DNA of 64,000 bases from assembly GCF_000717175.1 (NCBI RefSeq), contig NZ_JNYD01000001.1:186001-250000 (forward strand). Direction: 5' to 3'. How positions within the stretch are numbered: the first letter of the stretch is position 1; every line of letters begins with the position of its first letter. This DNA comes from Pseudonocardia autotrophica. GTDB taxonomy: Bacteria; Actinomycetota; Actinomycetes; Mycobacteriales; Pseudonocardiaceae. Below the pieces are notes generated by a model, which was given only the letters and a program-made list of their open reading frames with translations, made no database searches and had not been told where the DNA came from. Positions 55,482 to 62,518 of this stretch are shown piece after piece. The position numbers were made by a program, and so were the translations under genes.

Positions 55482-55933
55482 TGCAGCTCGAACAGATGTA
55501 CCAGGAGATCATCCTGGACCATTACCGCCAGCCCCACGGGGCCGGCCTGCGGGACCCGTTCGACGCGGAGACCCACCACGTCAACCCCACCTGCGGGGAC
55601 GAGGTGACCCTGCGGGTCAAGCTCGACGGGGACGGCGCGAACCGGACCGTGCAGGACGTGTCCTACGAGTCCCTCGGCTGCTCGATCAGCCAGGCGTCGA
55701 CGTCGGTGCTGACCGACCTCGTCGTCGGCAAGAGCGTCGAGGAGGCGTTCCGGATCCTCGAGTCCTTCCAGGAGATGGCGCAGAGCCGCGGCAAGATCGC
55801 GGGCGACGAGGAGGTCATCGGCGACGGCATCGCGTTCGCCGGGGTCTCCAAGTACCCGGCGCGCGTGAAGTGTGCTCTGCTGGGCTGGATGGCGTTCAAG
55901 GACGCGGTGGCGCGGGTGAAGGAGGAGGCATGA
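55481..55933 (+). CDS. sufU: SufU sulfur-transfer protein
   Basis: SufU is a zinc protein that accepts sulfur from SufS and passes it to SufB in Gram-positive bacteria. The 150-residue protein has the zinc ligands Cys38 and Asp40 (NPTCGDEV), Cys67 (LGCSISQAS) and a C-terminal cysteine in ARVKCALLGW. It starts LEQMYQEIILDHYRQPHG, a family signature. It overlaps sufS and sufT. Confidence 0.95.
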
Positions 55934-56343
55934 GCGACAACACCGCCGGGACGACCGACCCGGAGATCGTCCGGGGGGCGGCCGGCATGCCGGAGCCGCC
56001 GGCCGCGCAGGCCGCCGGCGAGGGCCCCTCGCTCGACGACATCGAGGAGGCCATGCGCGACGTGGTCGACCCCGAGCTCGGGATCAACGTCGTCGACCTG
56101 GGTTTGGTCTACGGCCTGAAGGTCGAGGACAACAAGGCGATCATCGACATGACCCTGACGTCGGCGGCCTGCCCGCTGACGGACGTGATCGAGGAGCAGG
56201 CCCGCTCCGCCCTCACCGGCGGCAGCACCGGCGGCCTGGTCGAGGACATCACGATCAACTGGGTCTGGATGCCGCCGTGGGGTCCCGAGAAGATCACCGA
56301 GGACGGCCGCGAGCAGCTGCGGGCCCTCGGCTTCCGCGTCTGA
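55930..56343 (+). CDS. sufT: SufT/MIP18-family (DUF59) Fe-S maturation protein
   Basis: The 137-residue protein has the DUF59 core: LDDIEEAMRDVVDPELGINV, then VDLGLVYGL and the cysteine in TSAACPLTDVI. These proteins help mature Fe-S proteins, mostly under high demand. The first 30 residues are Ala/Pro-rich. It is the last gene of the suf operon and overlaps sufU by four bases. The palindrome array follows directly. Confidence 0.93.
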   Translation: MSDNTAGTTDPEIVRGAAGMPEPPAAQAAGEGPSLDDIEEAMRDVVDPELGINVVDLGLVYGLKVEDNKAIIDMTLTSAACPLTDVIEEQARSALTGGSTGGLVEDITINWVWMPPWGPEKITEDGREQLRALGFRV

Positions 56344-56348
56344 GTAAT

Positions 56349-56493
56349 CGCACTATGGAACCATGATGCGCAGAGAGGGTTCTCGAACGCGCATTATGGT
56401 TCCATAGTGCGTTCAGAGTCGGCTCCGAAGCGCATTATGGTTCCATAATGCGTCCAAAACAGTTCGAGAATCGCATGATGGCTCCATAGTGCG
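56349..56493. repeat. Array of four 22-bp palindromes at 41-bp period
   Basis: Four 22-bp near-palindromes lie at 56349-56370, 56390-56411, 56431-56452 and 56472-56493, each start exactly 41 bases after the last. The third is perfect: arm CGCATTATGG, centre TT, arm CCATAATGCG. Units 2-4 run the same way; unit 1 is inverted and, flipped, differs from unit 2 by one base. The 19-base spacers have diverged while the cores have not. The array fills nearly all of the 153-base gap between the convergent sufT and cyclase genes. It could be a multiple bidirectional terminator, a REP/BIME-like element or a protein-binding array. It is not coding. Confidence 0.9.
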
Positions 56494-56496
56494 CTG

Positions 56497-57564
56497 TCAG
56501 CCGCCGTCGCCGCGCTCGCGCAGCAGGTAGGGCTGCAGGTGCCGGTAGCCCCGGACCTGCAGGGGCTTGAGCCGGCGCACACTGAACCGCTCGTCGTCCT
56601 CGATTCCGTGCGCGACCTCGCGGTCGACCAGCACCGTGTCCGGGCGGGCGTGGGTGGTGAGCCGGGCGGCGATGTTGACCGGCTCGCCGTAGACGTCGCC
56701 GAAGCGCAGCAGCACGTCCCCGGCGGCGAGCCCGATCCGCAGCGGGGGGAGCGAGGGCTCGCGGCGCACCCGGTCGCGCAGCCGCAGGGCCAGCCAAGCG
56801 GCCCCGGCGGGCTCGTCGGTCACGAACAGCACCTCGTCGCCGACGGTCTTGACGAGCCGCCCGCCGCACTCGGTGATCACGTCGGTCGTGCTGGCCTCGA
56901 AGTGCTCGATCATCTCGGACAGCTCGGCGGGGGAGCGCCGGCGCGTGGTGCGGGTGAAGCCGACCATGTCCGCGAACCCGACGCTGAGGGTGCGGGTCTC
57001 GGCGGCGGTGTCGGCGGCGGGGTCGTCCTGGATCCCGCCGACCACGAACCGGGACATCGTGGCGGCCAGGTGCCGCCGCCAGATGTAGACCTGCAGCAGC
57101 TCGAGCTTCGGCAGGAGCCCGGCGGTGAACTCCACGGCCTGCTCGGCGGAGACCTGCCCGGCGCGGTCGGCCAGCATCCGGGCCAGCATGCCGATCTGCC
57201 ACTCGGCGAGCCGCGAGACCGACTGGGCGACGGCCCGCAGCATCGCCTCGCGGACGTCGGCGGGAATGGCCGCCGCCGCGGGGTCGCGGCCGAGCATCGA
57301 CGCGGCCTGGACGTCCCGGTCGGTGAAGAACACCGCGTCGTCGGGCACTTCGGGGAAGCCGAGGGCCCGCCAGAGCCGCACACCCTCCTCGTCGGAGAGG
57401 CCGGCCAGCTGGACGACCTCGGCGCGGGTGTGCCGCCGCGGGCCGCCCAGGACGATCTCCTCGAGTGCCGTGACGAGTGCGGTGGACTCGTCGAGCCGCC
57501 GCCGCTCGCCGCGGTCCGCGGCCGCGAGGAACGCCTCGAGGTCCCGGACCCAGCCCTCGCTCAC
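56497..57564 (-). CDS. Class III adenylate cyclase with N-terminal regulatory domain
   Basis: The protein (355 residues) has an N-terminal all-helical regulatory domain (about residues 1-185), like the autoinhibitory pH-sensing domain of M. tuberculosis Rv1264, then a class III cyclase domain. Metal-binding Asp199 (GFADMVGFT) and Asp243 (KTVGDEVLF), substrate residues Lys239 and Asp290 (FGDVYGEP), and transition-state residues Asn297 and Arg301 (VNIAARL) are all present. It should make cAMP as a homodimer. It lies 7 bases after a universal stress protein gene and is likely co-transcribed with it. Confidence 0.88.
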   Translation of the reverse strand: MSEGWVRDLEAFLAAADRGERRRLDESTALVTALEEIVLGGPRRHTRAEVVQLAGLSDEEGVRLWRALGFPEVPDDAVFFTDRDVQAASMLGRDPAAAAIPADVREAMLRAVAQSVSRLAEWQIGMLARMLADRAGQVSAEQAVEFTAGLLPKLELLQVYIWRRHLAATMSRFVVGGIQDDPAADTAAETRTLSVGFADMVGFTRTTRRRSPAELSEMIEHFEASTTDVITECGGRLVKTVGDEVLFVTDEPAGAAWLALRLRDRVRREPSLPPLRIGLAAGDVLLRFGDVYGEPVNIAARLTTHARPDTVLVDREVAHGIEDDERFSVRRLKPLQVRGYRHLQPYLLRERGDGG

Positions 57565-62359: not shown

Positions 62360-62518
62360 TGCCACACCCTCCCGGACCCGTCCGACCGCGCGCCGACCGC
62401 GTCCCGACCCCGCGCGTGACGCGCGCGGCCCCGAGCCGCGCACTAGTGTCGACCCGAAGCTCTCGGGTCGGCCTCCGGCGACGCGTCGTGGCCCCATGAT
62501 GCGGTTCGGGTGAGGTGT

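Follow-up and report, generated by a model that had tools for sequence, protein, structure and literature searches.

We analysed a 64,000-bp stretch of the Pseudonocardia autotrophica genome (contig NZ_JNYD01000001.1, positions 186,001–250,000; hereafter the window, from genome G000), which contains an array of four 22-bp palindromes in the gap between two convergent genes. The left neighbour, sufT (55930–56343, + strand), encodes an iron-sulfur assembly protein (PF01883) and the right neighbour (56497–57564, − strand) is an adenylate/guanylate cyclase-domain gene (PF00211), lying 5 bp and 3 bp from the array, respectively. Unit 1 (CGCACTATGGAACCATGATGCG, 56349–56370, − strand) has an AA centre on the + strand and points the opposite way to units 2 and 3. 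The remaining units are all on the + strand: unit 2 (CGCATTATGGTTCCATAGTGCG, 56390–56411) has a TT centre, unit 3 (CGCATTATGGTTCCATAATGCG, 56431–56452) has perfectly matching inverted 10-bp arms on either side of TT, and unit 4 (CGCATGATGGCTCCATAGTGCG, 56472–56493) has a CT centre. Between them lie three 19-bp spacers without assigned strand (56371–56389, 56412–56430 and 56453–56471), giving start-to-start distances of 41, 41 and 41 bp. Coordinates and stop positions confirmed the initial annotation, which had described four such palindromes at an exact 41-bp period between convergent neighbours, the third perfect around TT and the first inverted.

A scan of the window with the unit consensus (≤3 mismatches) returned six strand matches, all within the array, compared with none in 100 shuffles. 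The array is a genuine feature and chance is excluded. An Rfam search of positions 55500–57500 at the gathering threshold gave no match, nor did a plasmid comparison for the array, and an identical array sequence is present in P. halophobica (L071). Elsewhere in the window, a lone weaker unit (CGCGTCGTGGCCCCATGATGCG, 62482–62503) ends 15 bp before the point where an ABC-transporter-like gene is predicted to start.

A dispersed and phased repeat family

Further copies, anticipated by the initial annotation, were abundant. G000 contains 28 exact units, 71 units with the R/Y pattern and 127 units at ≤2 mismatches, a threshold at which a reversed-pattern control gave two matches. R/Y-pattern units were present in 10/62 genomes of the genus. 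Of 297 genomes sampled from the taxonomic family (25 of them from the genus, G019 being absent from the sample), six carried a two-unit pattern, all of them Pseudonocardia. The palindrome CGCAATATGGATCCATATTGCG, found at several loci of a Pseudonocardiaceae metagenome-assembled genome (L026:2691-2712, L047:2295-2316, L072:7819-7840), is a possible relative of the repeat family in another genus.

Among 72 distinct arrays of at least two units, a set that may include a few chance or related entries, as may those behind the location counts below, neighbours were 41 bp apart in 137/167 cases, 42 bp in 15 and 40 bp in 5, in line with the earlier proposal that the spacing places all units on the same DNA face. 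Most arrays (66/72) had two to four units. The centre dinucleotide gives each unit a direction, and neighbouring pairs were AA-to-TT (35), TT-to-AA (5), TT-TT (35) and AA-AA (32). In 37 convergent arrays, the first unit was AA in 27 and the last TT in 24. A more general inverted-doublet pattern was found in 19/62 genomes and was never matched in the control. This included seven doublet-rich genomes with 18 to 41 places each (G000, G015, G019, G020, G036, G053 and G059; G015 is the same species as G000) and 12 others with 1 to 9 places. Short, high-copy, mostly extragenic and regularly clustered, the palindromes have the properties of repetitive extragenic palindromic (REP) sequences and bacterial interspersed mosaic elements (BIMEs). 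As in REP doublets forming hairpins (REPINs), they form inverted doublets at a constrained distance with a less conserved spacer, and same-orientation neighbours are also common in G000.

Orthologous arrays were recognisable between species. In 13 equal-length pairs, which were located with the unit pattern and are in part non-independent, 741/858 unit positions (86%) and 352/494 spacer positions (71%) were identical. In 10 of these pairs, columns 2, 3, 7, 9 and 10 of the folded unit were 95–100% identical, columns 4, 5, 6 and 8 were 68–77% identical, and the spacers matched at 259/380 positions; column 8 differed from columns 7, 9 and 10 at p = 4e-7. This conservation between species, together with the 127 copies, supports the initial annotation in its view that selection or copying acts on the cores. 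Its companion claim of diverged spacers held in part: spacers do drift between species, but they are not random, having a GC-rich middle and AT-richer edges, and adjacent spacers within one array shared 9.23/19 positions compared to 6.00/19 in shuffled sets (66 pairs). Since neighbouring spacers are more alike than shuffled ones, tandem duplication contributes to the arrays. A CRISPR array was rejected, orthologous spacers being identical at 352/494 positions between species.

Spacer length was retained together with the units. The 13 pairs accumulated 142 spacer substitutions and no indels, compared with 1108 substitutions and 142 indel events in 98 alignable ordinary gaps (of 112 compared), although the array pairs were picked for equal length and the Poisson value is only indicative. 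Nine unequal-length pairs differed by 1 bp in spacers or by whole units, and some of them had diverged more heavily. No arm pair matched above expectation in 101 distinct AA-oriented units, and compensatory changes were detected neither between the arms of a unit (p = 0.17) nor in spacer self-pairing (p = 0.58). Pairing between adjacent AA/TT units did exceed that in shuffled sets (33 pairs, p = 0.001), which duplication may explain. Because the two arms vary independently, the visible constraint on the units is something other than hairpin pairing. As judged from sequence comparison, the conservation pattern is that of a sequence-specific site with two-fold symmetry held at fixed spacing, not of a hairpin kept by compensatory change.

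A nuclease-like gene bracketed by the repeats

The likely partner gene, G000:C40, lies outside the window, and for this reason was missed by the initial annotation. Its product (~285 aa) is predicted to combine an N-terminal AbiEi-like DNA-binding part, with a predicted fold similar to AbiEi and Rv2827c, and a C-terminal Vsr/homing-endonuclease-like (DUF559-like) domain. The nuclease-like domain has invariant acidic residues, and its sequence profile reaches 3r3p in a weak match (E 0.014). The gene sits between genes of 57 aa and 125 aa, the latter matching no Pfam family, and arrays lie on both sides. In a comparison of this locus (30 loci fetched, 25 parsed), the array-gene-array block was present in G000, G015 and G019 and absent from G059, G056 and G024; G007 also carries such a block.

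Orthogroup matches at E ≤ 1e-40 comprised 22 loci in 20/62 genus genomes. In the G019 match, one TGA was flagged with one query and none fell inside with the orthogroup query at this threshold. Units or 63-bp inverted doublets flanked the gene on both sides at 17/22 loci; 14 of these matched the strict pattern, while G047 and G056 were recognised from units and G052 from reading its second side. By comparison, doublets occurred on both sides of 0/708 sampled genes and on at least one side of 24, all controls for the flank tests being G000 genes. This bracketing of a single gene on both sides is, by analogy, the arrangement of REP-associated tyrosine transposases (RAYTs). Ten genomes (G004, G012, G016, G020, G022, G026, G035, G049, G052 and G061) lack any R/Y-pattern unit, and the gene still lies between 63-bp-type doublets, here with GGAGCC/GGCTCC centres. 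Bracketing in these genomes is more telling than in array-rich ones. Across genomes, presence of the gene tended to go with the abundance of units (p = 0.001) and of doublets (p = 0.001, inflated by the gene's own flanks), with G059, G036, G053 and G027 as exceptions that have elements but no gene.

A similar arrangement was apparent around paralogues. Using 48 loci drawn from 73 matches in 12 genomes (fetched loci L311 and L313 omitted; flanks defined as left and right in contig orientation), both flanks shared a repeat of at least 15 bp at 25/48 loci compared with 1/360 control genes, and of at least 13 bp at 29/48 compared with 15/360, the controls again being G000 genes only. The flank repeats differed between paralogues, and inverted elements of ~50–70 bp were frequent around the more distant ones. 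The flank element of G058:C20 resembles a palindrome in another G058 gap. In a 780-kb sample of G000, only the repeats of the C40 gene were clearly dispersed. Generality across the paralogues is suggested.

Taken together, we favour, as a probable explanation, that the window array is a cluster of REPIN-like dispersed elements that are recognised, and probably were once spread, by the bracketed AbiEi-like/nuclease-like protein. The basic element would be a 63-bp inverted doublet consisting of a pair of oppositely oriented 22-bp sites (core GCANNNNGGNNCCNNNNTGC) with starts 41 bp apart, present in this lineage as arrays of 2–7 units that were enlarged at least partly by tandem duplication. By analogy with AbiEi and Rv2827c, the AbiEi-like part would bind each 22-bp site, and specific binding would depend on GCANNNNGG and on phase. 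Two proteins would face each other over the 19-bp spacer, where their nuclease domains would meet and cut. Cutting, followed by repair copying or homing, would move the elements and the bracketed gene into new sites, and new copies would settle in tolerant places, mostly just after stop codons. Any host role, such as a convergent-gene boundary, a roadblock or an effect on topology, would be secondary.

Several observations weigh against this explanation. Two further genes have arrays on both sides, and this slightly lowered our confidence: an SDR gene (L013, L101, L121; L013:1461-2411) and an aldehyde dehydrogenase gene (L028, L064; L028:4377-5972), both arrangements being conserved in two to three species. 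Flanking alone is therefore no proof in array-rich genomes. Five of the 22 orthogroup loci are not bracketed by the elements: G038, G061:C256 and G051, which are near contig ends or short, G046, which has an internal stop and one unit on one side, and G004:C24 (L343). At the last of these, a 63-bp inverted repeat of another kind (CGCGACATGGACACGT...) stands in identical form on either side of the gene, which suggests that repeat specificity can switch. Co-occurrence is also imperfect. At E ≤ 1e-40, the gene is missing from G059 and G027, which carry units, and from G036 and G053, which carry 18 and 22 doublets, respectively; the well-kept units of G059 point to recent loss of the gene or to a host role. 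Conversely, 12/20 carriers lack any exact-pattern unit and 8/20 a strict-pattern doublet, in low-copy carriers some of the counted doublets are the gene's own flanks, and G000 and G015 count as two carriers of one species. Regarding the protein, Pfam DUF559 scored below the cut-off in one protein and gave no match in another, and an NCBIfam scan gave no match. The G000 paralogues C13, C18 and C35 had no shared flank repeat of at least 13 bp.

Genomic placement and rival explanations

Placement of the arrays bears on whether they serve the host. In an unselected 780-kb sample of G000, with gene calls for all placement counts taken from a simple purpose-made caller, arrays or single units occupied 9/113 convergent, 5/481 tandem and 1/112 divergent gaps, a significant preference for convergent gaps (9/113 versus 6/593 other gaps, p = 1e-4). 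Across all loci, 75 arrays were distributed among convergent (37), tandem (25) and divergent (1) gaps, with one within an open reading frame and 11 at locus edges. This preference, the retention of motif columns and spacing at orthologous loci, and the many units kept by G059 without the gene would all agree with a host DNA-binding protein (nucleoid, roadblock or topology) that binds sites phased at 41 bp where genes end, with the nuclease-like gene as a passenger. We regard this as unlikely: no candidate host protein was found, and orthologues of the gene are doublet-flanked on both sides even where a genome's dispersed copies are few or absent. Furthermore, arrays turn over between close species. 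Across the sufT gap in the 62 genomes (30 loci fetched, 29 parsed), the array was present in G000, G015, G019 and G024, an apparent degenerate array remnant lay in G027, and different hairpins occupied G059, G046 and G056.

Other repeats were also observed in such gaps. A second palindrome family, GTGAGTGGCGATAGTCGC in either orientation, takes up several convergent gaps, in some of which the palindrome supplies the stop codon (G000 C1:14481-14533, 305607-305656, 339576-339616, 442993-443035; C4:67576-67628), and sequence similar to it follows sufT in G058 and G010. A third family, around CGCGAGTCGGGAGTTCC, fills convergent gaps at G000 C1:280424-280605, 283665-283877 and 505271-505403.

The different hairpins at the sufT gap, which are GC-rich, fit a second and decidedly unlikely alternative, namely that stacked hairpins end both convergent transcripts as a bidirectional terminator, as proposed by the initial annotation, or stabilise mRNA 3' ends. 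Arrays do lie right after stop codons (distance ≤15 bp in 86/99, seven being negative with the predicted stop inside the array), and the window array was predicted to fold strongly (z −9.98). Complementarity between spacers 1 and 3 was not above shuffles in seven arrays, though the window array folds in this way. Terminators described elsewhere show compensatory changes (excerpts of PMC5381666), whereas the arms of a unit vary independently here, and no GC-rich hairpin with a T run was found in window positions 56200–56640. By our own reading of the genes, a two-unit array separates carB and pyrF in G019 and G059, while in G000 these genes overlap at GTGA and are array-free, a difference that gives no direction of change. 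A gene that we read as nonribosomal peptide synthetase (NRPS)-like contains an in-frame four-unit array with a 42-bp period, encoding a 14-residue repeat (G000 C1:26185-26332; L123:6185-6332). With arrays inside carB-pyrF and in frame in the NRPS-like gene, an obligatory terminator is unlikely, and an intrinsic terminator as sole function was rejected given no T-tract, no arm covariation and the arrays within carB-pyrF. Elsewhere, predicted gene models let the gene downstream of an array start at an ATG within the array's final unit (L024:3934-3996; G000 C1:18320-18382).

Other enzymes were considered as the source of the copies. The initial annotation had named a REP-associated transposase, but the Y1 transposase family PF01797 has no member in G000. 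It occurs in 5/62 genus genomes, none of them G000, G015, G019 or G059, and in only G007 among the ten unit-bearing genomes, so that a Y1/RAYT origin was rejected. In G019, the end of an insertion sequence (IS), presumably of the DDE type, directly adjoins a unit, at a matching position, in three arrays (L085:5739-5865, L104:1-145, L107:853-997). No unit adjoined the IS in loci read from other genomes, and IS-like sequence had some match, often weak, in 35/62 genomes. Because related sequence occurs in array-free genomes, the IS was set aside as array source and looks like a guest, not the maker. Its position in G019 would nonetheless suit a third, improbable alternative, whereby the AbiEi-like protein would act as an autorepressor through binding to the flanking repeats and would no longer cut DNA, copies being spread by recombination or an unrelated transposase. 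AbiEi and Rv2827c are indeed autorepressors that bind paired inverted repeats, but here the gene has elements on either side and not in the promoter alone, and the acidic residues of the nuclease-like domain are invariant. A one-off, functionless local tandem duplication, which the likeness of neighbouring spacers and units within arrays might suggest, can practically be dismissed given 127 units genome-wide and columns conserved between species.

Relation to known systems and significance

For the published systems, the comparisons below draw on excerpts of the cited papers, with PMC7319586, PMC3985639 and PMC12306157 as further background. The closest resemblance of the proposed system is to REPIN-RAYT, with which it shares short repeats paired as inverted doublets at a fixed distance, a spacer less conserved than the ends, extragenic dispersal, tandem clusters and a cognate gene adjoining or bracketed by the elements (PMC3116915, PMC2817692). 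In contrast, the putative enzyme is AbiEi-like plus Vsr/DUF559-like and not Y1/HUH, units lack compensatory change between their arms, and unit starts are 41 bp apart compared with 71 bp in a published GI example (PMC3116915). The GTAG/CGTC tags, which define REP superfamilies (PMC3733652), occurred at the ends of none of the 28 exact units.

The similarity to BIMEs noted in the initial annotation stood up well, as the Escherichia coli elements are likewise regularly spaced palindromes of alternating orientation (PMC2817692), although the array differs in sequence, taxon and gene association. BIME-2 elements are linked with gyrase. AbiEi and Rv2827c resemble the candidate protein in its predicted N-terminal fold and, as autorepressors, bind pairs of 23-bp inverted repeats. 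In the published cases 3 or 13 bp separate the paired repeats, which lie in the protein's own promoter, whereas here the separation is 19 bp, the sites flank the gene on either side and also occur dispersed, and there is an additional nuclease-like domain. AbiEi is a type IV antitoxin, expected next to a DUF1814 toxin gene; the 125-aa neighbour of the C40 gene had no Pfam match. From the I-Bth0305I/Vsr/DUF559 nuclease fold the gene differs in being repeat-bracketed and fused to an AbiEi-like part. The G019 IS recalls those inserting into REPs (PMC1525189), but related IS sequence also occurs in genomes without arrays. A literature search covering few subscription papers found no link of DUF559 to REPIN or RAYT, PMC12907096 mentioning, in the parts seen, DUF559 but neither of these; DUF559 together with palindromic repeats returned only seemingly unrelated work. 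What is new, going by the genome sequences, is the putative nuclease-like, AbiEi-related gene, which in much of its orthogroup stands between elements of the same kind as the array.

More tentatively, we propose an independently evolved counterpart of REPIN-RAYT, in which the protein would recognise inverted 22-bp sites 41 bp apart, cut between them and spread ~60-bp elements. Several coexisting paralogues would each have their own repeat family, and the arrays where convergent genes end would be their remnants, partly adopted by the host. REP-like repeats are common in bacterial genomes, and the enzyme reported for them in the papers cited here is the Y1/HUH tyrosine transposase. If the proposal is true, the same arrangement built around an unrelated enzyme would mean that this strategy arose more than once, and a single purified protein would suffice to test how arrays form at gene ends. 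Such a finding would also call for caution in naming lone AbiEi-like genes antitoxins, and would suggest a role for many actinobacterial genes now known as DUF559, AbiEi antitoxin or very-short-patch-repair endonuclease genes.
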